Source of the DNA: Nitrospirota bacterium
GTDB lineage: Bacteria; JACPQY01
Direction: 5' to 3'
DNA: 12,549 nt
Assembly (NCBI GenBank): GCA_016180645.1
Contig: JACPAV010000064.1
Coordinates: 1 to 12,549, forward strand
The notes below the pieces were generated by a model. That model had not been told where the DNA came from. It saw only the letters and a list, made by a program, of their open reading frames with translations, and did not search any database. A program made the position numbers and the translations under genes. This document shows, in pieces, positions 1 through 12,549 of the stretch. The first letter of the stretch is position 1, and every line of letters begins with the position of its first letter.

Positions 1-887
1 CGCGTCATTCTTTGAGCCAGCGTCCGCCGGCCGGTTGTGAGGAAGAGGGCAGGGGAGGGCGAAGACGCCATCTCAGATTTGAAATTTGAGATTTCAGATG
101 GAGGAGGGGAGGGGGCCGGCGAGGACGCCATTTCAGATTTCAGATTTGAAATCTCAGTTGAGGAGGGGGAGGGCAGGGGAGGGGATTTCAAACTCGTGGC
201 TCGTGCAGTCAAGATTCGCTCCCGAATCTTGAGCCAGTCTCTCAGGTACGCCCACGCCTCGGGGCCGATCACCACGAAGTTGTTCTTGTCCGCTTCGCCT
301 TTACCTTGGATCACCAGCGTGCGGATGCCGTCCCGCACGCGCAGGTCCGCCTCGTCGGCCCGCCAGGCTTCCACTTGGCGGAGGCCCGTCGTCGCGAGGA
401 GGGCGATGAGCGCCCGGTTCCGGACTGCGGCGGAGCCCTCCCCGGTCCATGCGTCGATCATCCTTCGTACTTCCTCCGGCGTGAAGGCGTCCTTCAGATG
501 GTGCCGACTCCGCCTTGCGCTCTTCACGCGGCCGACCACGACGCCGTGGTAGCCGAGGAAACTCATCACCGCGGCTTTGTAGAGTTGGATGGTGTTCGGC
601 CGCAAAACGGCCGAGGGCGATGGGCGGTGGGCGATAGGCGATGGCAGGGAAGCTGTCGCTCCGTGCGGCTCGCGTCCCGGGTACGGTGCCGCTGCTTGCA
701 GATGCCTGACGAACTCTACCACGGCCTCTCTCGGGGTGGCGAAGGTTTTTCCTCTCAACCAAGCCGCGAACTTTTCGAGGGCGGTGCGATACGTCCGCCG
801 CGTGTCGGCGCTGAAGGAGGGGTCGTTGAGGAAGGCCTCGATCCGGGCGAGGAGCGCGGACGGCGAAGCGAGAGCGAGGTCAGTCAT
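1..887 (-). CDS. Tyrosine recombinase / integrase, C-terminus cut by window edge
   Basis: Site-specific DNA recombinase of the phage-integrase family. The minus-strand frame starts at the ATG complementary to 885-887. It is the first possible start, because an in-frame stop lies at 900-902. About 295 residues are visible. Residues 10-120 form the helical SAM-like core-binding domain. The catalytic domain follows, with the first catalytic Arg at residue 170 (TTGLRQVEA) and the beta-hairpin Lys at residue 196 (IQGKGEADK). The stretch ALFLTTGRRTLAQRMT at the window edge is where the family has the strand before the HxLRH motif; that motif, the last Arg and the Tyr nucleophile lie outside. Two low-complexity in-frame insertions are present: residues 70-93 (SLPSPIAHRPSPSA) and residues 233-281, two copies of a 20-residue unit containing EISNxKSEMASSP. 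Its position next to the accessory operon suggests it mobilised or fixed this region. I saw no attachment site. Upstream Shine-Dalgarno match is poor. Confidence 0.85.
   Translation of the reverse strand, partial: MTDLALASPSALLARIEAFLNDPSFSADTRRTYRTALEKFAAWLRGKTFATPREAVVEFVRHLQAAAPYPGREPHGATASLPSPIAHRPSPSAVLRPNTIQLYKAAVMSFLGYHGVVVGRVKSARRSRHHLKDAFTPEEVRRMIDAWTGEGSAAVRNRALIALLATTGLRQVEAWRADEADLRVRDGIRTLVIQGKGEADKNNFVVIGPEAWAYLRDWLKIRERILTARATSLKSPPLPSPSSTEISNLKSEMASSPAPSPPPSEISNFKSEMASSPSPALFLTTGRRTLAQRMT
61..173. repeat. Two tandem 60-base repeats inside the integrase gene
   Basis: Positions 61-113 and 121-173 are imperfect direct copies with a 60-base period. Each begins GA(A/G)GACGCCAT and carries an imperfect palindrome made from the word ATTTCAGATTTGAAAT, followed by a purine-rich GGAGGGG tract. 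On the minus strand each copy reads in frame as EISN(L/F)KSEMASSP. This AGATTTGAAATTTGAGATTT type of word is a familiar dispersed repeat in GC-rich environmental bacteria. The period is a multiple of three, so the integrase frame survives. Confidence 0.8.
611..647. repeat. Degenerate GGCGATG-word repeat inside the integrase gene
   Basis: The words GGCGATG, GGCGGTG, GGCGATA and GGCGATG follow each other at 7-8 base spacing. On the minus strand they read in frame as SPIAHRPSP, in the linker between two helices of the core-binding domain. It is a different word family from the ATTTCAGATTT repeat at 61-173. Confidence 0.65.
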
Positions 888-1247: not shown

Positions 1248-1382
1248 ATGCAAAAGAGACACACGCACGGACGCCGCGCTACCCCAACCCACCGCCCAGG
1301 CCGCACCGCGATAGCCGCTCGCCCGAACGGCTTCGATCACGGAAAATCGGTCTCGACCTCAAGAGCCCTCTTTGCCGCATGA
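1248..1382 (+). CDS. Possible small basic protein, 44 aa
   Basis: This short ORF starts with ATG at 1248, or in frame with GTG at 1239, just after the AAAGGAG at 1231-1237. The product would be very basic (MQKRHTHGRRATPTHRPGRT at its N-terminus), without recognisable domain, cysteine pair or membrane segment. Its stop TGA at 1380-1382 coincides with the first base of the palindrome at 1382-1457. I do not recognise it. It may be a leader peptide, a small nucleic-acid-binding protein, or chance. Confidence 0.3.
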   Translation: MQKRHTHGRRATPTHRPGRTAIAARPNGFDHGKSVSTSRALFAA

Positions 1383-1457
1383 TCCCACCACCTCGAACAG
1401 CCCGCCGCTTGGCGGGCTCGAATTCTGCGGCCTCCGGCCGGTTCGAGGTGGTGGGAT
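1382..1457. repeat. Three-way-junction palindrome (REP-like element)
   Basis: ATCCCACCACCTCGAAC at 1382-1398 pairs perfectly with its inverted copy at 1441-1457 (17 base pairs). Inside the arms stand two further perfect hairpins: 1399-1406 with 1411-1418 (8 pairs, loop GCTT), and 1428-1432 with 1436-1440 (5 pairs, loop TCC). The whole can fold as a three-way junction in DNA or RNA. It has no T-run after it, so it is not a classical terminator. Its right arm ends in the start codon of the next gene. Confidence 0.75.
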
Positions 1458-1653
1458 GAAAGGCCGGATCCTGGGAGAGCGGGGAAAGGTCACGTTCTTT
1501 TTCGAGTGCCGCGAATGCAAGGAGAAGATCAGACTCCCGCTCTACTTCGGCGTGAAGAGGATTTGGAACAACTCCACCAGCCCGACGTTGCAGAAACTCT
1601 ATCCGCACCAGGGCCACAGGGTGGGCGTGCGATGGGAGTTTGAGCCGGTGTAG
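1456..1653 (+). CDS. Small CxxC protein, 65 aa, unknown function
   Basis: I chose ATG 1456 because it has GAGGT 6 bases upstream and begins a protein without the palindrome-derived prefix. A TTG at 1372 would add 28 residues encoded by the palindrome. The product is MKGRILGERGKVTFFFECRE onward, with one CxxC (Cys18, Cys21, CREC), then a basic segment and an aromatic C-terminus (WEFEP). One CxxC suggests a half zinc site, perhaps completed by dimerisation, or a remnant zinc ribbon. The stop TAG is followed directly by the ATG of the next gene (TAGATG), which points to translational coupling. I do not recognise the family. Confidence 0.5.
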   Translation: MKGRILGERGKVTFFFECRECKEKIRLPLYFGVKRIWNNSTSPTLQKLYPHQGHRVGVRWEFEPV

Positions 1654-1848
1654 ATGGGCAAGAAACAATACCGGGGTCACTATTGCCGGGTTTGCGGCCG
1701 AATACGCGCGAATGAACGATTCAGCGGCAAGGGCCACGCGAGACATGTCTGTAGGGACTGCGAACTCAAGATGCGCGCCGAGGCTCGCAAGAGGAGGAAA
1801 CCCGACCGCGTAGGCTCGGAAGGGGCGGGACAGGCCGGAAGATCGTGA
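1654..1848 (+). CDS. Small four-cysteine zinc-finger protein, 64 aa
   Basis: The product has two knuckles, YCRVC (Cys11, Cys14) and VCRDC (Cys33, Cys36), separated by a conserved-looking stretch with ANERFSGKGHARH. This is a treble-clef or zinc-ribbon-like layout that should bind one zinc ion. The C-terminus is basic (MRAEARKRRKP), which suggests nucleic acid binding. Small proteins of this pattern (HYCxxCGRxRxNExFSGKGHxxHxC) occur widely in bacteria without a named function. The start abuts the previous stop. Its own stop overlaps the GTG start of the next gene (GTGA at 1845-1848). Confidence 0.7.
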   Translation: MGKKQYRGHYCRVCGRIRANERFSGKGHARHVCRDCELKMRAEARKRRKPDRVGSEGAGQAGRS

Positions 1849-2552
1849 ACATCCCGTTGTCGGATCGACCGATCGTTCATCTCAAGAGCATGAACACCAC
1901 AGAGATGGCCCGGCGGCATCTGGAGGAGTGGTGGGCGCCAAGGATAAAGCCCTGGGCCGCGGAGACAGGCAGGAATCTCTTCGCGGAAGTACTGAGGACG
2001 ATCCGTTCGGTTCGGTTTTGTGGGTATGGGCACGGCGGCTGGATCTACAGCTCGGTGGCCTTCGAGGTCGCAACCCTCCTCACCGTTGAGGTCGAGCAGG
2101 CCTTCAGCTACATCGACAGGGCAGCCAAGCCGGCGCATACGCCGTGCGTCCCCAAGAAAAAGCAGCTCCGGCGCCTGGCGGAGACGCTCTCAAAAGACAA
2201 TCTGGTCAAACCTTCTCTCGACTACCCACCCTGCGAGTGCTGTCTCGAGCGGATCGAGAAACGTTTCTGCAAGAAATGGCAGGGGCTGGATCACCTTTGG
2301 TGGACGAGGCTCCGGGAGATCCTGCCGGAGTATCCGATAGACGAGCGTTTCGAGAAACGGGGCTTCCGGTACGAACTCGATGAGGTCACGCAGTCTGCCA
2401 TGCAGTGGGTCGTGGAGACCTACTTGGAAGAACTTGCAAAGGCCGGAGCGGATGGACGCGAGGAGCTGCCGCCACCGTCCTTCGTCCGGGGCCTGGCGGC
2501 CTCGGTCTTCGCGGGTCGCCCCAGCAAGAAAGAGCGGGCCGCAGCCCATTAG
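1845..2552 (+). CDS. CxxC protein, paralog 1 of a local three-member family, 235 aa
   Basis: Start GTG 1845 overlaps the previous TGA; ATG 1890 is an in-frame alternative that would still keep the conserved start of the family. Residues 26-43 (HLEEWWAPRIKPW...TGR) match the opening of the proteins at 4758 and 5717 (HMLEFWEPRIKPW...AGR). A CxxC at Cys130-Cys133 (PPCECC) falls almost exactly where those proteins have Cys-Lys-Glu-Cys, and both are followed by a Trp-containing segment and a YP-x-D/T motif. The rest has diverged, including a missing ESWGPSK C-terminal block. It is mostly helical with a basic tail. Biochemical role unknown; the shared scaffold suggests the three act in the same process, perhaps as a hetero-oligomer. 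Confidence 0.7.
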   Translation: MNIPLSDRPIVHLKSMNTTEMARRHLEEWWAPRIKPWAAETGRNLFAEVLRTIRSVRFCGYGHGGWIYSSVAFEVATLLTVEVEQAFSYIDRAAKPAHTPCVPKKKQLRRLAETLSKDNLVKPSLDYPPCECCLERIEKRFCKKWQGLDHLWWTRLREILPEYPIDERFEKRGFRYELDEVTQSAMQWVVETYLEELAKAGADGREELPPPSFVRGLAASVFAGRPSKKERAAAH

Positions 2553-2557
2553 GCAGG

Positions 2558-2983
2558 ATGCGACACTACACTTGGATCCCCCGTGCAGCAGACATCGCCT
2601 TCGAGCTGATGAAGGTGCCAGCCCTTCTGGATCGCAAGGACGTGGAGAAGCTTTTCAAGATCCCCAAGACGAGCGCGGTCTACCTCATGCGCGCGGCGGG
2701 AGGAGAGAAGAAGGGCATCTCGATGGTCATCAGCCGGGACCGGCTCACGGCTTTCGTGAACGGCAAAGTGAATGGGGAGCCATCCCGAAGGCCCGCGCTG
2801 GGCGAGTACGTCATCGAAGGGGAACCCCTGAAGGAGGATGAGTGGCTTGAGAAAGTGGCCAACGGCGTCAGGATCGCCGCGAAGTCCCGGGCCGAGTTCG
2901 TGCGGAATCTGAAACGCCTCACGCAGGCTCTCCAGGACCCGATTGAGCGAGAGAAGATGTTCCGGGAACTCCATCTTCAATAG
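2558..2983 (+). CDS. Helix-turn-helix DNA-binding protein, 141 aa
   Basis: I chose ATG 2558 because AGGCAGG stands directly before it and it begins 5 bases after the previous stop; longer in-frame versions would run back over the preceding gene. Residues 24-46 (LDRKDVEKLFKIPKTSAVYL) look like a helix-turn-helix of the excisionase/MerR-like sort, followed by a beta-wing-like segment (ISMVISRDRLTAFV). The C-terminal half (90-141) is charged and helical (WLEKVANGVRIAAKSRAEFV). Similar proteins that open with a W-x-x-R segment and a LLDR-HTH are known as unnamed DNA-binding proteins in Acidobacteria and relatives; that is from memory. It may be the DNA-recognition subunit or the regulator of the operon. 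It lies 10 bases before the kleisin gene. Confidence 0.6.
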   Translation: MRHYTWIPRAADIAFELMKVPALLDRKDVEKLFKIPKTSAVYLMRAAGGEKKGISMVISRDRLTAFVNGKVNGEPSRRPALGEYVIEGEPLKEDEWLEKVANGVRIAAKSRAEFVRNLKRLTQALQDPIEREKMFRELHLQ

Positions 2984-2993
2984 GATATTACGT

Positions 2994-3746
2994 ATGAGCG
3001 CGGCGGCTCTCCACCCTCTCTTCGATCTCAAGCAGAAGCTTGAGGTCCTGATCGCGCTCGTCACCGGACCGGACGAGGAAAAGCGCGAGACGGCAGCCTT
3101 CGAGGCTTCGATCGCGTCCCATGCCTCGCAGCTCACGCTCCTCGCCTCAAACCTGCCGCACGCTCCCCGGGCGATTGAACTGGCCTGCGACCTCCTGGAA
3201 CTGGTGGCGCTTCTCATCCTCCTGAAAAGCACGCGCCTCGTCGAGCGACTCGGAAGATCTCCGGACGACCCCGCGGCGCGAGAGATCCTTCTCAAGCATA
3301 TCCTCGAGAAAGCGCGCGCCCTCCGCGACGAGATCGATGTCCGCCTGTTGCCGGTGAGGCCCGTTCCGCCGCCCGGGCGCTATGGTGAGGTCCTGGCGGA
3401 AGGCGGATCGGATACCGGTGGTCCTCGCATGGAATGGGTGTCGTTCGAGGAGCTTGCCGACAGCCTCGACCAGATCCTTTCCGAACTCGAATCGAGGCCC
3501 CACGAGGTGCAGATGGACCGCCCGACGGTACGGGAGATGATCGAGAAGTTGCTCGCCCTCCTGGCCGCACGAACCAGGTTCATCCTCCAGGCCGTGTGGG
3601 GTATCGAAAGAGCCGAGCGGGTGACGGCGTTCCTGGCCGCCCTTGATCTCACGTATCAGCGAAAGGCGCGGATTGAGCAGCGTGAGGCCGGAGGGGACGT
3701 CTATGTCACACGGGGCACGGCGGGCGATCCTGGTGCCGGAGCATGA
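2994..3746 (+). CDS. scpA: Divergent ScpA-type kleisin, 250 aa
   Basis: ScpA is the kleisin subunit that bridges the SMC dimer heads and binds ScpB in the bacterial condensin. Start ATG 2994 has AGGA 8 bases upstream. Residues 62-83 (LACDLLELVALLILLKSTRL) match the family's helix that normally reads LAxxFLxMAxxLLxIKSxxLL. Residues 148-195 correspond to the middle linker and helices (VSFEELADSLDQIL). Residues 207-240 (AERVTAFLAALDLTYQRKAR, then IEQREAGGDVYVTR) match the C-terminal winged helix that contacts the SMC head. The usual N-terminal FEGPLDLLL motif is replaced by LFDLKQKLEVLIALV, so it is a divergent paralog and probably not the housekeeping copy. Length is normal (about 240-270). A ScpB-like gene follows one gene later; no SMC gene is in the window. 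Its TGA overlaps the next ATG (ATGA). Confidence 0.7.
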   Translation: MSAAALHPLFDLKQKLEVLIALVTGPDEEKRETAAFEASIASHASQLTLLASNLPHAPRAIELACDLLELVALLILLKSTRLVERLGRSPDDPAAREILLKHILEKARALRDEIDVRLLPVRPVPPPGRYGEVLAEGGSDTGGPRMEWVSFEELADSLDQILSELESRPHEVQMDRPTVREMIEKLLALLAARTRFILQAVWGIERAERVTAFLAALDLTYQRKARIEQREAGGDVYVTRGTAGDPGAGA

Positions 3747-4216
3747 AGCAGAATCCCGTCGCGAGGTCCGAAGCGGATTCCGCACCGCAGGTCGAAGGCA
3801 ACCTCCGTTGGATGTCGGTCGGCGAGTTTCGCATCGAGAGAAGATCCCTCGTGCCACCCTCTCTCTCCGGCCTCCTGAATCGGCAACCCTGCATCTATCG
3901 ACTTCTTTTTCTTGACCAAGCTCGGATGAACGAAGCGTGGGTGGGCCAAAGCCGGAGCTTGGGGCCCGACCTGCGGGCGTTCGCAAAGGGTGGAGGTGCG
4001 ATGCCGAAGGAACTCAGGAGCCATGTGCTGAGCGCGCTCCGGAGCGGGAGGAGGGTTTGGGTCGAGGTGGTCGAGCCGAGCCGGCTCAAGTTGCATACCG
4101 GCAATGCGGACCTGAAAGACGACGATACAAGAGCGCTGGTTCGCCAACTCGCTCTCCTCCAGACGGCCGCGACGGTGAAGAAGGTCTTGGAGTTCGGACG
4201 CAAGGGCTGGTCGTAG
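3743..4216 (+). CDS. Unknown protein between scpA and scpB, 157 aa
   Basis: The ATG overlaps the kleisin stop (ATGA at 3743-3746), and the stop is one base from the ScpB-like GTG, so translation of all three is probably coupled. The product has no cysteine pair, signal peptide or membrane segment. An N-terminal part (residues 21-80) contains IYRLLFLDQARMNEAW and looks like a small alpha/beta fold; the C-terminal part (86-157) has a beta-strand-like RRVWVEVVEPSRLKLHTG and two helices ending in VKKVLEFGRKGW. I do not recognise a family. Position alone suggests a partner of the ScpA/ScpB-like pair, in the place where other condensin-like operons may carry an accessory subunit. Function unknown. 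Confidence 0.6.
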   Translation: MKQNPVARSEADSAPQVEGNLRWMSVGEFRIERRSLVPPSLSGLLNRQPCIYRLLFLDQARMNEAWVGQSRSLGPDLRAFAKGGGAMPKELRSHVLSALRSGRRVWVEVVEPSRLKLHTGNADLKDDDTRALVRQLALLQTAATVKKVLEFGRKGWS

Positions 4217-4217
4217 C

Positions 4218-4700
4218 GTGACCGTGGAATCGACTGAGGCCGACCGTCCGAGACAAATATGCGCCGTCCTCATCGGGTCGGGCAGGGCGCTCGCCCCAGC
4301 GGAGATCGGCCAAGTGCTTGGGATCGAGACCCATGACGTGGAGAGCGTGATGGAGCATGTCAAGGATCGGCTTGCCGGCGTCGGCCTCGCGCTCGTCTCG
4401 GACGAGAAGGGGAGATGGCTCGTCGCGGTGGGCGCGGCGGGACGTGTGATGGTCGCGCGGCTCAACGGAGACCCGCTGGGACGTAGGCAACTTTCTACCG
4501 AGGCGGCCGAAACGCTCGCTTTGCTTCAGGAGAAAGGACCGCTCACCATCAAAGAGATGGCCCGCATCCGCGGCGCGAATCCGAGAAATGCCGTCGAGAC
4601 ATTGCGTGCTCTCGGCCTTGTCCGGCGCGCTGGCCGCTCGCGGGGCAGGGGAGGGGCGTGGCTTTACAGGGTTTCGGCGACCGTACCGGATGGCTTGTGA
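4218..4700 (+). CDS. scpB: Divergent ScpB-type winged-helix protein, 160 aa
   Basis: ScpB dimers bind the kleisin ScpA and regulate the SMC ATPase. The GTG start lies one base after the previous stop. Residues 11-75 form the first winged helix (ICAVLIGSGRALAPAEIGQV, then GLALVSDEKGRWLVAV), matching the family pattern of an IEALLFASGEPL start and a G-x-x-L-V strand. Residues 92-154 form the second (LSTEAAETLALLQEKGPLTI, IRGANPRNAVETLRALGLV, then a Gly/Arg-rich turn and WLYRVS), matching LS-x-AALETLAIIAY-x-QPITRAEI-x-x-IRG of ScpB. Several normally invariant positions differ, for example IAYKQPIT is LLQEKGPLT, so like its kleisin neighbour it is a divergent copy. It is a little short for ScpB (usually 170-200) and lacks the charged C-terminal tail. 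Confidence 0.72.
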   Translation: MTVESTEADRPRQICAVLIGSGRALAPAEIGQVLGIETHDVESVMEHVKDRLAGVGLALVSDEKGRWLVAVGAAGRVMVARLNGDPLGRRQLSTEAAETLALLQEKGPLTIKEMARIRGANPRNAVETLRALGLVRRAGRSRGRGGAWLYRVSATVPDGL

Positions 4701-4757
4701 GGGGCTAAGGAATGTGAGAAAGCTGTCTCGGTTGGAGCGCGTTGGTAGGAAGGTGAC

Positions 4758-5606
4758 ATGAATCCTTTCGTGCGAATGCCTGGCAGGCAGAGGGAGCCCG
4801 AATGGCTCCAGGCCGCAGCCTCCCTCGATCATATGTTGGAGTTCTGGGAGCCCCGGATCAAGCCGTGGATGGAGCGCGCTGGGAGGGCTTACTTCGATGT
4901 CGCTCGAGACCTTGCCCAAAAGGTCACGCACTGCCAGCCGCCCTCCGCCCAATCGCGCCGGGCGATCCTGATGATCCTCCCGGTAGCGGAGGTGTATGCG
5001 TGGGCTGCTTCCCTTCACGACTGGTGCAGGCGCGCAGGGTTCTGGGGCGACGCCGGGGAGACCTTCCTGTGGGTCCGCCGCAACGTGGCCGAGAAGCTCG
5101 ACGATGATGAGCGAACGGACCTCATGCTTTTCGGGGAGTGCAAGGAATGCGTGGAGGAGGCGGGCGTCCATTCGAACGCCTCCCCGAAGAGGCCGTTCCA
5201 TGTCTGGAACAAGCGCCTCCCTTCGATCGTGAGGGAGTACGCGAAGAGATACCCCCTGACGGACTACTATCCGCGTGAGCTGATCACCGTGATGACGCTC
5301 GTCGGCGAGGAAGCCATGAGGGGCTATCTTGGCGGCTTTCGGGAGGCGATAGGGATCGATCCCGACCTTCCGGCCGAGGAGCAATTCCGTAGCGATCTGG
5401 CCCACGCGATTCGACACGTTTACACGGCTGCGGACAACCCCGATGTCATGGTGATCGAAAGCTGGGGGCCGAGCAAGAAGTGGGAAGAGGGATGGAGACC
5501 GGAGTGGGCGAGGGTAGCGGAGCCGGCTGCCGATGCGCCTCCGGATGTCCGGAAAAAGCGCCGCAGTCGGACCCAAAGGGCGGGAGCGGGGGCACGAACG
5601 CGGTGA
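4758..5606 (+). CDS. CxxC protein, paralog 2, 282 aa
   Basis: The ATG has a strong AGGAAGGTGAC site just upstream, deciding the start. Recognisable blocks shared with the next gene are: residues 23-46 (SLDHMLEFWEPRIKPW...AGRAYFDV), His58-Cys59, RAILMILPV (68-76), GFW (94-96), the DLMLFGECKECV block with Cys128 and Cys131, KRPFHVW (144-150), TDYYPREL (168-175), LAHAIRH (214-220), and the C-terminal ESWGPSKKWEEGWRPEWAR (234-252). About half of all residues are identical between the two. No signal peptide or membrane segment is seen; the tail is basic and probably disordered. The CxxC with upstream HC could form a metal site. I recognise no characterised family. It is separated from the ScpB-like gene by 57 bases, the widest gap in the operon. 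Confidence 0.75.
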   Translation: MNPFVRMPGRQREPEWLQAAASLDHMLEFWEPRIKPWMERAGRAYFDVARDLAQKVTHCQPPSAQSRRAILMILPVAEVYAWAASLHDWCRRAGFWGDAGETFLWVRRNVAEKLDDDERTDLMLFGECKECVEEAGVHSNASPKRPFHVWNKRLPSIVREYAKRYPLTDYYPRELITVMTLVGEEAMRGYLGGFREAIGIDPDLPAEEQFRSDLAHAIRHVYTAADNPDVMVIESWGPSKKWEEGWRPEWARVAEPAADAPPDVRKKRRSRTQRAGAGARTR

Positions 5607-5716
5607 TATCTGGAAAGGCCAATCCGGCCCACCTCGATTTGGAATTGGCCGTGGCCACTCCCAAGCCGAAAGACCGTCCTCGCCGTTCCCGCAGATTCGC
5701 CTCGCCTCCCCCCAGC

Positions 5717-6559
5717 ATGAAAAGTTCGATCGGCGGTTTTGCGCGATATCTTCGTCGAACACCGCCCTGGCTTGAGGGGGCTCAATTCGTCGACCACATG
5801 CTTCAGTTCTGGCAACCCCGCCTCTGCCCTTCGATGCGAGAGGCTGGACGCGCCTACTTCGACGTCGCCCTCAGAATCCTTGGTCGGATCAAACATTGTC
5901 GGCCGATGTCGGCCGCGACACATCGGGCGATCCTCACGATCCTGCCCGTGCCGGAAGCGTACTGGCTGGCTCGAACACTTGCCAACTCCTGCCGCGAGCA
6001 AGGGTTCTGGGAGGATGGCATGGAGGCGTTTCCCATCGTTCGGAAGAATATCGCGGACAAGGTGTACGACGATGAGAGGCGTCGGGACCTCATGCTCTTC
6101 GGGGAGTGCAAGGAGTGCCTGGCCCGGTCCGCGCCTTTGACGCTGGAGCATCCCAAGCGGCCTTTCTTCATTTGGTCCAGGCGTGTCGAGCCGCTCACGC
6201 TCGAGTATTCGAAGAACTATGCCTTCACGGATTTCTATCCAAGGGAGCTCATCAGCGTCGTCTCCATGGTGGGGGATGAGATCATGAAGGGGTACATCGC
6301 AGGATACGAGGAGGCTCGTCTCCGCGACCCTGACCTGCTGGACACGGCCGTGTTCCGTCGGGATCTGGCTCACGCCATCCGGCACGTGGCTCAAGCAGCA
6401 GACAATCCCAACCATCTTGTCATCGAAAGCTGGGGGCCGAGCAAGATGTGGGAAAGCGGCTGGAGACCGGACTGGGCGCGCGATCCTATTTCACCCATCA
6501 GGAGCCAACGCCGGGCAAAGGTGGGAAGGAGGCGAGATGCCGTACGTGCTCTTCCGTGA
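5717..6559 (+). CDS. CxxC protein, paralog 3, 280 aa
   Basis: The same blocks as in paralog 2 appear in the same order: FVDHMLQFWQPRL (24-36), AGRAYFDV (43-50), His60-Cys61, HRAILTILPVPE (69-80), GFW, DLMLFGECKECL with Cys131 and Cys134, KRPFFIW, TDFYPREL, RRDLAHAIRHV, and ESWGPSKMWESGWRPDWAR (237-255). Start is uncertain. ATG 5717 gives the length and N-terminus of paralog 2 but has no Shine-Dalgarno match. GTG 5603 overlaps the previous stop (GTGA), as at 1845, and would add 38 Pro/Arg-rich residues. The 3' end overlaps the next gene by 23 bases. The family is uncharacterised to my knowledge; tandem duplication of one ancestor gene explains the pair. Confidence 0.75.
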   Translation: MKSSIGGFARYLRRTPPWLEGAQFVDHMLQFWQPRLCPSMREAGRAYFDVALRILGRIKHCRPMSAATHRAILTILPVPEAYWLARTLANSCREQGFWEDGMEAFPIVRKNIADKVYDDERRRDLMLFGECKECLARSAPLTLEHPKRPFFIWSRRVEPLTLEYSKNYAFTDFYPRELISVVSMVGDEIMKGYIAGYEEARLRDPDLLDTAVFRRDLAHAIRHVAQAADNPNHLVIESWGPSKMWESGWRPDWARDPISPIRSQRRAKVGRRRDAVRALP

Positions 6560-7832
6560 CCATCTGCCCGAGATCGCCGAGCGTGAGACCCGGTCGATCA
6601 CCGTCTTGCCCGAATCCAATCTGGGCCTTCCGCCGGGGAACTATGGGTTCATCGAAATGTTCTGCGATGAGACGGGCTGCGACTGTCGGCGCGTTTTCTT
6701 CTACGTCGTCTGTTCGTTCCGCAAGGAGGTCCAGGCGGTTGTGGCGTGGGGTTGGGAAGACCCCGCGTTCTACGCGAAATGGATGAGGAGCGGTGATGCT
6801 CGTGATGTTGCAAACCTCAAGGGGCCTATTCTGAATCTGGGCAGCCCTGAAACGGAACTGGCCCCCGGCATCCTGGCGATAGTCGAGAACATTCTGCTGA
6901 GGGATGCCGCCTACGTCGATCGCGTCAAGAGACATTATGCCCTGTTCAGGGACAAGGTTGATGGCTGTGTGCACGGCCGCCTCGGGGATGGACCGAGCGC
7001 GGAGGAGTTGGTCCCCACAGCGAGTCCCTCCGGAAGGAAAGTCGGACGCAACGAGCCGTGCCCCTGTGGGAGTGGAAAGAAGTACAAGAAGTGCTGCTTG
7101 GGGAAGGAGGCGTCGGAGCCTGAGTTCGAGGGTCTCGACGACGCAATCGATTCCGTTGGAACGAACGCCGAGGATGCCGCCCACGTGAATCGCCCGAGAA
7201 GTCGCAGACCCCGCAGGCGGGTTCAGTTCGCGAGGGTATTCCAGTTCAAGATCACTCTCCACGGGACGAATCCTCCGATCTGGAGGCGCATCCTGGTCCC
7301 GGAGAACTACTCATTCTGGGACCTGCATGTGGCCATCCAGGACGCGATGGGGTGGAAGGACTATCACCTGCATGTCTTCCGGATGTGTCGTGCCGGAAAG
7401 GGGAAGGAAAAGCTGATCGGTATTCCGGATGAGGAGTGGCAGGAGGAGTTTCCCACCTTGCCGGGTTGGAAACAGGCCATCGCGGACTGGGTCACCCTGA
7501 ATCATCCCACGGCTGAATATGAGTATGATTTCGGAGACAGCTGGGAGCATGAGGTGGCGCTGGAAGAGATTATTCCGCGCGATCCCGCCGTGGCCTACCC
7601 TTCTTGCACGGAGGGCGCGCTATTGGCCCCTCCGGAGGATGTCGGGGGCATCGGCGGCTACTACGATTTCCTCGAGGCCGTGCGGGATGTGAACCATCCC
7701 GAGCACGACGAATGGCTGACGTGGGCCGGTGGCGCCTACGATCCCGATTCCTTCGATCCCCGGAAGGTGCATTTCGACGATCCCGATGAAAGATGGTCCA
7801 TTGCCTTTGAAACCATGGGCGAGGAGATTTGA
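6537..7832 (+). CDS. SEC-C motif and pRiA4b ORF-3-like protein, 431 aa
   Basis: ATG 6537 has a strong GGAAGGAGGCGAG site and lies inside the end of the previous gene. Three parts are visible. Residues 1-150 form an N-terminal domain with a cysteine cluster (Cys43, Cys48, Cys50 in FCDETGCDCRR) and the LPPGNYGFIEMF motif. Residues 169-187 are a SEC-C zinc motif (EPCPCGSGKKYKKCC; Cys175, Cys177, Cys186, Cys187), as in the SecA tail, which binds zinc and often proteins or nucleic acid. Residues 234-420 match plasmid pRiA4b ORF-3-like proteins (FQFKITLHGTNPPIWRRILV, YEYDFGDSWEHEV, PPEDVGGIGGYYDFLEA). That family is common on plasmids and mobile elements and has no established biochemical role, though it was once linked to IS1096. 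The combination fits an accessory, mobile setting. It is the last gene of the plus-strand run. Confidence 0.85.
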   Translation: MPYVLFRDHLPEIAERETRSITVLPESNLGLPPGNYGFIEMFCDETGCDCRRVFFYVVCSFRKEVQAVVAWGWEDPAFYAKWMRSGDARDVANLKGPILNLGSPETELAPGILAIVENILLRDAAYVDRVKRHYALFRDKVDGCVHGRLGDGPSAEELVPTASPSGRKVGRNEPCPCGSGKKYKKCCLGKEASEPEFEGLDDAIDSVGTNAEDAAHVNRPRSRRPRRRVQFARVFQFKITLHGTNPPIWRRILVPENYSFWDLHVAIQDAMGWKDYHLHVFRMCRAGKGKEKLIGIPDEEWQEEFPTLPGWKQAIADWVTLNHPTAEYEYDFGDSWEHEVALEEIIPRDPAVAYPSCTEGALLAPPEDVGGIGGYYDFLEAVRDVNHPEHDEWLTWAGGAYDPDSFDPRKVHFDDPDERWSIAFETMGEEI

Positions 7833-8074: not shown

Positions 8075-9238
8075 ATGCGAGGGGATCCATCGAGGTCCGG
8101 TCGCAATAGACCCAGACTGCGCGTTCTGGCTCTTCGTGGTACGCCCAAGGAGACCATCCAGTGTCTTCTCTGCGGGCTCCGGATGAAGAACCTGGGGATT
8201 CATATTGTTCGGGTCCATCGAATGAGGTCTGAAGACTACAAACGCCGGTTCGGGGTCGTTTACGTGGCAAGTCCGGCTGCTCGGAAAGCCGTGAGTCGGG
8301 CAATTACCCGATGGACCCCCGCCAGGATCATAGCGGAACTCCGGCGCCTCACGACATCGGCGCACGGCCCGCGCCAACTGCGGCCGCAACGCGTTGCGAC
8401 GCACCGGCGACTTCAGACACGTTGCCGCTACCATTTCGGTTCGTATAAGGCAGCACTCCAGGCCGCCGGGCTCGACCTCCACGTGTCCAGCCGCCGCTTC
8501 AAATGGGACCGCGCGCGTCTGGTCGCTGAAATCAGATCGCGCCGACGGCAGGGACTTCCGCTCAACGCCAACGCAGTCCCCCACGGCATCAAGCGTGCGG
8601 CCGCGAGACACTTCGGAGGATATGGGGTGGCCATCGAAGCTGCCGGGATCCGGTATGCCACGATCAGAAAGACCAAGCCTTATGATCTGAAGCTCATCAT
8701 CCGCGCAATTCGCAAGAGGTGGGCGTTGGGGAAACCCCTCAATCATAAGGTGGTCAAATTGGAGGACACATGGCTTGCCCAGGGCGCCCGGTTGCGGTTC
8801 GGAAGCTGGGACGGAGCCCTCCGGGCCGCCGGCTTCGATCCGAAGAAGATTCGGTTCCGGAAAAAGTGGTCCCCTGCGGAGGTGATCAGCCGGATCCGGT
8901 CCCGATCTCAATCTGGCCAACCGATGAACCTGAGGGCCGTATTTTTCGGTGATTCATCGCTCTACGCAGCCGCCTGCCGGTACTTCGGCACGTGGCAGAA
9001 GGCCGTGAATGAGGCGGCGTTGGATTATGAAGCTATCCGTCTGAGAAAAGTCTGGACCATGCAGGATGTCCTGGACAGCATCCGCAGGCAAGCGGCCCTT
9101 GGCATTCCGCCCCTCAAGGCGGCGATGGCAGAGCGGGAAAGTACACTCCCCAGCATCGCCCGAAGGTACTTCGGGACATGGAGGGCGGCTGTTGGCGCCG
9201 CAGGGCTGGATCCGGCCGGCCCGGCGGAGGCTGGATGA
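8075..9238 (+). CDS. Ros/MucR-type zinc finger with five HNR repeats, 387 aa
   Basis: The N-terminal finger has the spacing Cys30-x2-Cys33-x9-His43-x4-His48 (QCLLCGLRMKNLGIHIVRVH), followed by RSEDYKRRFG, which resembles the SPEEYRAKWG segment of Ros/MucR regulators. Five repeats follow at about residues 80-140, 144-200, 202-261, 265-322 and 327-380. Each has a W-containing helix, a Lys/Arg-rich helix, then a (Y/L)FG(S/T)W-x-x-A-(L/V)-x-(A/E)-A-(G/A)-(L/F)-D signature. This is the homing-endonuclease-associated repeat (HNR), thought to bind DNA. No nuclease motif (GIY-YIG, HNH, LAGLIDADG) is visible. It is very basic and probably binds DNA. ATG 8075 is preferred; TTG 8054 is in frame. Neither has a good ribosome site. 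Confidence 0.8.
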   Translation: MRGDPSRSGRNRPRLRVLALRGTPKETIQCLLCGLRMKNLGIHIVRVHRMRSEDYKRRFGVVYVASPAARKAVSRAITRWTPARIIAELRRLTTSAHGPRQLRPQRVATHRRLQTRCRYHFGSYKAALQAAGLDLHVSSRRFKWDRARLVAEIRSRRRQGLPLNANAVPHGIKRAAARHFGGYGVAIEAAGIRYATIRKTKPYDLKLIIRAIRKRWALGKPLNHKVVKLEDTWLAQGARLRFGSWDGALRAAGFDPKKIRFRKKWSPAEVISRIRSRSQSGQPMNLRAVFFGDSSLYAAACRYFGTWQKAVNEAALDYEAIRLRKVWTMQDVLDSIRRQAALGIPPLKAAMAERESTLPSIARRYFGTWRAAVGAAGLDPAGPAEAG

Positions 9239-11200: not shown

Positions 11201-12549
11201 TTACGGAAGATTTGTGACGGGGACGGGGGTGAGGCGTTGGGTGCTCGTGCCGTCGCCCAGTTGGCCGTAGAGATTCCTCCCCCAGCATTTCACCGTCCCG
11301 TCGGAAAGAAGGGAACAGGTGTGATCGATGCCCCCCGCCACGGCCACACCGCCCGAAAGTGATGACACGGCGGTAGGCGTCAGGCGATCGGCGCTGGTTC
11401 CGTCCCCAAGCTGACCGTAGACATTGCGCCCCCAGCATTTCACCGTGCCGTCGGAGAGAAGGGAACAGGTGTGATTTAGGCCCCCTGCCACGGCCACACC
11501 GCCCGACAGGCTGCTCACGGCCACGGGGGTCGATTTGTCCACCAGCCCCCCGTCCCCAAGCTGACCGAAGACATTGCGCCCCCAGCATTTCACCGTGCCG
11601 TCGGAGAGAAGGGAACAGCTGTGATCGGCGCCCACTGTGACCGCCACGCCGCCCGTGAGGGAGCTCACGGCCACGGGGGTCAATTTGTCCACCGTCGTCC
11701 CGTCCCCAAGCCGACCGCCGTAATTGTATCCCCAGCATTTGACCGTGCCGTCGGAAAGAAGGGAACAGGTGTGATTGCTGCCCCCCGTGACGGCCACGCC
11801 ACCGGAGAGTGAAGACACGGCGGTGGGCGTTGGGCGGTTGCCGGTGGTTCCGTCCCCAAGCTGACCTTGGGCATTGGCCCCCCAGCATTTGACCGTGCCG
11901 TCGGATAGAAGGGAACAGGTGTGATTGCTGCCCCCCGCGACGGCCACACCGCCCGACAGGCTGCTCACGGCCACGGGGGTCGATTTGTCCCCCCCCGTCC
12001 CGTCCCCAAGCTGACCGTAGAAATTGCGCCCCCAGCATTTCACCGTGCCGTCGGATAGAAGGGAACAGGTGTGCACGTTGCCCCCCGCCACAGCCACACC
12101 ACCCGACAGGCTGCTCACGGCCACGGGGGTCGATTTGTCCCCCCCCGTCCCGGCCCCAAGCTGGCCGTAGATATTGTACCCCCAGCATTTCACCGTGCCG
12201 TCCGAGACGAGTGCGCAGGTGTGATTGCCGAGGTGGTTGGTGATGCCTTCGCGGAAGGGGCGGGCGGGGGCGCCGGAGGCGGTGGATTCGTGGAGGCGGG
12301 GGAGTTTGACGGCCATCGGGCCGACTAGTGAGGACACGGCGGTGGGCGTTAGGCGGTCGGCGGTCGTCCCGTCCCCAAGCTGACCGTAGAGATTGCGTCC
12401 CCAGCATTTCACCGTGCCGTCGGAAAGAAGGGAACAGGTGTGATTTTGGGCCCCCGCCACGGCCACACCGCCCGAAAGTGATGACACGGCGGTAGGCGTC
12501 AGGCGATTGGCGGTGGTTCCGTCCCCAAGCTGACCGTAGAGATTGTCCC
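11201..12549 (-). CDS. RCC1-repeat (beta-propeller) protein, N-terminus outside window
   Basis: RCC1/ATS1-type repeats fold as blades of a propeller and usually mediate protein binding; in bacteria such proteins are often secreted or surface-bound. The gene runs in from the right edge and stops at TAA (complement of 11201-11203); about 449 residues are visible. Eight full units carry the signature NHTCSLLSDGTVKCWGRN, then YGQLGDGT and a TPVAVSSLSGG linker. Seven units have exactly 50 residues (150 bases); the second visible one has 73, because KLPRLHESTASGAPARPFRE and a few more residues are inserted before its HTC. Every unit has two cysteines (HTC and KCWG), which could form a disulfide if exported. 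Neighbouring units are nearly identical in DNA, a sign of recent expansion or gene conversion. Signal peptide and total length cannot be seen. Confidence 0.92.
   Translation of the reverse strand, partial: DNLYGQLGDGTTANRLTPTAVSSLSGGVAVAGAQNHTCSLLSDGTVKCWGRNLYGQLGDGTTADRLTPTAVSSLVGPMAVKLPRLHESTASGAPARPFREGITNHLGNHTCALVSDGTVKCWGYNIYGQLGAGTGGDKSTPVAVSSLSGGVAVAGGNVHTCSLLSDGTVKCWGRNFYGQLGDGTGGDKSTPVAVSSLSGGVAVAGGSNHTCSLLSDGTVKCWGANAQGQLGDGTTGNRPTPTAVSSLSGGVAVTGGSNHTCSLLSDGTVKCWGYNYGGRLGDGTTVDKLTPVAVSSLTGGVAVTVGADHSCSLLSDGTVKCWGRNVFGQLGDGGLVDKSTPVAVSSLSGGVAVAGGLNHTCSLLSDGTVKCWGRNVYGQLGDGTSADRLTPTAVSSLSGGVAVAGGIDHTCSLLSDGTVKCWGRNLYGQLGDGTSTQRLTPVPVTNLP
11283..12410. repeat. 150-base tandem repeat array within the RCC1 gene
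   Basis: The word CAGCATTT begins at 11283, 11433, 11583, 11733, 11883, 12033, 12183 and 12402. The first six intervals are exactly 150 bases; the last is 219, that is 150 plus 69. The shared cores around CAGCATTTCACCGTGCCGTC differ at only a few positions between units. Confidence 0.9.

Follow-up and report, generated by a model that had tools for sequence, protein, structure and literature searches.

The window analysed here, a stretch of 12,549 bp, is an entire contig (C64) of the host genome bin, which comprises 65 contigs, totals 4.7 Mb, and is 97% complete. Ten open reading frames (ORFs), all on the plus strand, lie within positions 1456–7832 (Table 1); the first-pass annotation had claimed nine genes in this interval, although its own list contains ten. 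Its description of a coupled, co-oriented unit is borne out, as every junction that it named is present: TAGATG at 1651, GTGA at 1845, ATGA at 3743, GTGA at 5603, a single base between 4216 and 4218, and an overlap at 6537–6559. Two modest gaps, of 5 bp (2553–2557) and 57 bp (4701–4757), occur in the operon. Third-position GC across the ORFs is 0.66–0.83. The open frames, the tight overlaps, the third-position GC, and the selection on P0008 and P0009 described below argue that the genes are real and that the cluster is no ORF-calling artefact.

Table 1. Genes and other features of the 12,549-bp window
Feature	Position	Strand	Length	Description
Tyrosine recombinase	1–887	-		Divergent; truncated at the contig end, ahead of HxxR/Y
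Small upstream ORF	1239 or 1248 to 1382	+	44–47 aa	Basic; upstream of the operon; predicted from sequence
Palindromic mobile element	1383–1456	.	74 bp	Three-way junction; fold z -8.5
P0001	1456–1653	+	65 aa	CxxC; orphan
P0002	1654–1848	+	64 aa	Zinc-ribbon-like (CxxC ... CxxC); Zn_ribbon_Nudix 0.0017, below cut-off
P0003	1845–2552	+	235 aa	Divergent CxxC-family member; E 0.001 to the P0008/P0009 profile
P0004	2558–2983	+	141 aa	Orphan with a putative HTH recognised by eye only
P0005	2994–3746	+	250 aa	Diverged ScpA-type kleisin (predicted)
P0006	3743–4216	+	157 aa	Orphan between the kleisin and KITE genes
P0007	4218–4700	+	160 aa	Diverged ScpB (KITE; predicted)
P0008	4758–5606	+	282 aa	CxxC family
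P0009	5603–6559	+	318 aa	CxxC-family paralogue in tandem with P0008
P0010	6537–7832	+	431 aa	N-terminal domain, SEC-C, and pRiA4b ORF-3
MucR/HNH-repeat gene	8075–9238	+		ROS/MUCR-like N-terminus, then HNH-associated repeats (PF18780)
RCC1-repeat gene	11201–12487	-		150-bp DNA repeats

Upstream of P0001, the small basic ORF has AAGGAG 5′ of its ATG at 1248; a promoter-like TTGCTT-17-TACAAT at about 1202–1230 is weak and falls under the consensus-scan threshold. The palindromic element sits exactly in the stop/start overlap of this ORF and P0001, which would read ATGA without the insert. A 3-bp TGA target duplication flanks the element (1380–1382 and 1457–1459); its left copy is the stop codon of the small ORF, and the duplication leaves both reading frames intact. 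The start codon of P0001 takes its A from the last base of the element. With the insert in place, a strong hairpin separates the first ORF of the operon from the second.

The element belongs to a dispersed family, represented in the host by 12 exact-arm copies plus degenerate ones. Its fixed arms (CCCACCACCT...AGGTGGTGGG) recur in at least 120 stretches of named genomes, and the arm-bearing stretches among the matches listed come mostly from Candidatus Omnitrophota and Elusimicrobiota MAGs; further copies of the family are in the thinly sampled phylum of the host. Family members are roughly 60–90 bp long, with hypervariable but self-complementary interior hairpins. Among the matches listed, 112 of 133 distinct copies are structured; 81 of these 112 carry an identical 3-bp flank (vs. 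16% by chance), and the identity reaches 4 bp in only two. The 3-bp flanks are mostly TCA, TGA, TTA, or TAA, which defines a TNA target duplication. Five bases inside the fixed arms vary, and at least four of the five pair in 105 of the 133 copies listed, as against 6% with shuffled partners. Rfam gave no match in the window, and a search for an autonomous partner or transposase of the element found none. We also considered an integron, with the divergent integrase and the palindrome as attC, and rejected it because 3-bp duplications at dispersed sites signal transposition, not site-specific recombination, and because the operon genes overlap.

Two products of the operon, P0005 and P0007, resemble the small subunits of the Smc–ScpAB condensin, and the earlier designations of a kleisin-like and an ScpB-like protein both hold up. 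P0005 scores 22.7 bits with the Pfam ScpA model (PF02616), below the 24.6-bit cut-off, but a profile built on canonical ScpAs of relatives, 13 in all, recovers it (HMM E = 3.8e-13, Z = 1000). In hhalign, residues 61–247 of P0005 are aligned to ScpA (97%). The alignment covers the neck-binding helix region (LLELVALLILLKSTRLV vs. FLAMAATLLYIKSRMLL) as well as the winged helix at the C terminus; in ScpA, these are the two ends known to contact Smc. Sequence comparison with solved ScpA structures gives a weak match, and alignment to canonical ScpAs indicates that the N-terminal FEGPLDLLL motif is absent from P0005. Judged by its sequence, P0005 is best read as a kleisin of the ScpA type that has diverged strongly.

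P0007 matches PF04079 significantly (E = 1.3e-17; 64 bits, cut-off 27.4), with residues 13–154 spanning both winged helices of ScpB, and it matches the ScpB structure 3w6j in the PDB by sequence (E 3.4e-8). Its score of 44 bits does not reach the NCBI equivalog cut-off of 89, and it is 23% identical to the host ScpB. In the alignment, P0007 has lost the AYKQP motif and kept the IRG motif. In a 21-row tree, which does not resolve the position of P0007, its terminal branch is 8.05 (median 1.24). Some HTH models, MarR-like ones among them, also match it weakly. We interpret P0007 as a genuine ScpB that has diverged very far. Given its lost AYKQP motif, low identity, and extreme branch, interfaces may be lost.

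The host has its own condensin. The first-pass annotation had raised the question of whether hosts of such an operon carry a separate scpAB; this one does, as canonical, adjacent scpA and scpB genes on contig C48. The genome encodes one full Smc (C61:9135-12689), beside RecN; RecN and SbcC-like sequences are the other strong matches in the host Smc search. No smc gene was found in the operon, so that the kleisin/KITE pair is duplicated in this genome but the motor is not. Given the separate scpAB and the single host Smc, this pair would have to use the host Smc or none. A search of 97 other genomes with P0007 gave a match in 54, each with just one. The 20 ScpB loci examined in other genomes are all of the canonical type, and scpA is recognisable nearby in most.

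The remaining products include a family of CxxC proteins. P0008 and P0009 share 53% identity, and a two-sequence profile of this pair recovers P0003 (Table 1), in agreement with the earlier proposal that the three are related; none of them has a Pfam, NCBIfam, or PHROG match of note. Between P0008 and P0009, dN is about 0.4 and dS about 1.8, which puts the ratio near 0.2 (synonymous sites are close to saturated); the pair is under purifying selection. No Pfam HTH model matched P0004. In P0010, the SEC-C (7.5e-10) and pRiA4b (2.4e-60) domains assigned on first reading are both solid. AlphaFold2 models of P0008 (pLDDT 41, from a 3-row alignment) and P0006 (pLDDT 38) are poor, too poor for their Foldseek matches, including those to MukF and JetA, to have meaning, and we discarded these matches.

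Searches for the cassette elsewhere returned little. The CxxC-family profile found no relatives in 385 other genomes or in the plasmids, phages, and viral contigs searched, and a peptide-pattern scan of 85k genomes, which is insensitive to distant relatives, also found none. P0002, P0004, and P0006 have no convincing relative in our searches: matches of P0004 in two genomes, and those of P0002 and P0006, were rejected as short or as lying within unrelated genes. No relatives of P0004, P0005, P0006, or P0007 appeared in the mobile-DNA collections. The cassette is absent from the sister genome of the phylum, which is 84% complete. The phylum is represented in the searched set by these two genomes, so the absence of relatives is weak evidence and conservation is barely testable. 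A check on whether the gene order is kept elsewhere, beside integrases, turned up no second instance in the genomes searched, which include one other from this thinly sampled phylum; the idea of a conserved system is therefore unsupported but not refuted. Our best guess is that the operon is lineage-restricted and chromosomal, and both its function and the claim that it is a system rest on a single genome.

The divergently oriented tyrosine recombinase at the left end of the window contains in-frame low-complexity insertions, made up of ATTTCAGATTTGAAAT-type and GGCGATGGGCG-type repeats; no continuation was found in the sampled host contig ends. When the ends of C64 were compared with other contigs for an overlap that would join them, the left end had no match and the right end matched RCC1 repeats only. 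RCC1 relatives lie near the ends of five host contigs (C5, C17, C20, C42, and C63), and this family probably causes assembly breaks. The ROS/MUCR-like N-terminus of the other flanking gene is just under the Pfam cut-off, and its product has a host paralogue on contig C36. Both flanking genes thus have paralogues elsewhere in the host, and the tetranucleotide composition and GC content (0.62 vs. 0.61) are inside the host range. A misbinned contig was rejected: C64 has the dispersed palindrome family of the host, paralogues of RCC1 and P0011, and host-like composition. Relatives in the mobile DNA searched are confined to the widespread domains of P0010, on plasmids; pRiA4b ORF-3 proteins are common there (2706 plasmid records), but all plasmid matches to P0010 fall short of 80% coverage. 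The original proposal of a system of an integrated element is partly supported: the coupled unit and the kleisin-like and ScpB-like proteins stand, and the integrated element is at most putative, with host-like composition, flanking genes that have host paralogues, and an integrase that runs off the contig end.

Among known systems, the operon is close to Smc–ScpAB (PF02616, PF04079). As there, kleisin and KITE genes occur in one operon in scpA-to-scpB order, and their products can be aligned at both kleisin ends and across both winged helices, respectively. In contrast to Smc–ScpAB, the pair is a very diverged second copy besides the canonical scpAB, with an extra gene (P0006) between its members, orphan CxxC genes around it, and no smc. 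With Wadjet/MksBEFG (JetABCD) the operon shares the idea of an accessory kleisin/KITE set separate from the chromosomal condensin, but its subunits are of the ScpA/ScpB type. Genes for the Wadjet SMC (JetC/MksB) and nuclease (JetD/MksG) are absent from the window, at both sides of which the contig ends. Wadjet or another defence system was rejected, as PADLOC gave no Wadjet match and only short SEC-C or winged-helix matches. P0010 has both domains of the pRiA4b ORF-3/SEC-C proteins and is here encoded by the last gene of the operon.

We favour, with a probability of about 0.36, the reading that this lineage-restricted operon encodes an accessory kleisin–KITE pair. P0005 and P0007 would bind each other as ScpA and ScpB do, and P0005 would use its neck-helix region and C-terminal winged helix to dock the complex, in place of ScpAB, on the heads of the single host Smc. 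P0002, P0003, P0008, P0009, P0010, and the putative HTH protein P0004 could serve as DNA- or partner-specific adaptors for targeting or loading. The outcome would be an alternative Smc complex for particular DNA or conditions. The neck-helix region and C-terminal winged helix that P0005 retains favour this reading, as do the match of P0007 across both winged helices, the scpA-to-scpB order within one coupled operon, the single host Smc with its separate scpAB, and the selection on P0008 and P0009. The lost motifs, the divergence of P0007, the operon without smc, and the lack of a second instance in our searches count against it. In the main rival, P0005 and P0007 would have left the Smc world and, as repurposed winged-helix proteins, would join the CxxC proteins in a complex that binds DNA or regulates independently of Smc. 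The extreme divergence of P0007, the loss of hallmark motifs from both proteins, the weak MarR-like and other HTH matches of P0007, and an operon without smc are all consistent with such a departure. However, P0005 remains alignable at both Smc-contacting ends, which is more than a purely regulatory protein would require; we consider this rival only slightly less likely than the favoured reading.

The cassette might instead belong to an integrated mobile element, as cargo or as a module for its maintenance that uses or blocks host condensin so that the element is segregated or protected. A divergent tyrosine recombinase adjoins the operon, plasmids often carry pRiA4b ORF-3 proteins, and the distribution is patchy, with a sister genome that lacks the cassette. 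We nonetheless judge this unlikely: the distinctive genes have no relatives in the plasmids, phages, and viral contigs searched, the composition is host-typical, the flanking genes have host paralogues, the integrase is truncated by the contig end, and no attachment sites could be defined in a window that is the whole contig. It is more improbable still that there is no functional system at all, only a chance run of fast-evolving or decaying orphans beside one diverged scpAB duplicate. That most products are orphans and that no search found a second instance would fit a chance assemblage, but none of the ten tightly overlapping frames is interrupted, P0008 and P0009 are under purifying selection, and the kleisin and KITE genes are both intact despite their divergence.

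As far as we know, condensin diversity in bacteria comes from the addition of complete SMC complexes (MukBEF, MksBEFG, Wadjet), and a non-exhaustive full-text literature search found no description of a second kleisin/KITE unit of this kind without a second motor. An accessory pair on the host Smc could amount to a partner-exchange condensin, in which the operon's kleisin/KITE pair and metal-binding adaptors re-target the single Smc to a specific task, a specific proposal that we regard as rather unlikely. If it is true, Smc function would be diversified by swapping small subunits, with no second motor needed, and three new protein families would gain a testable role.
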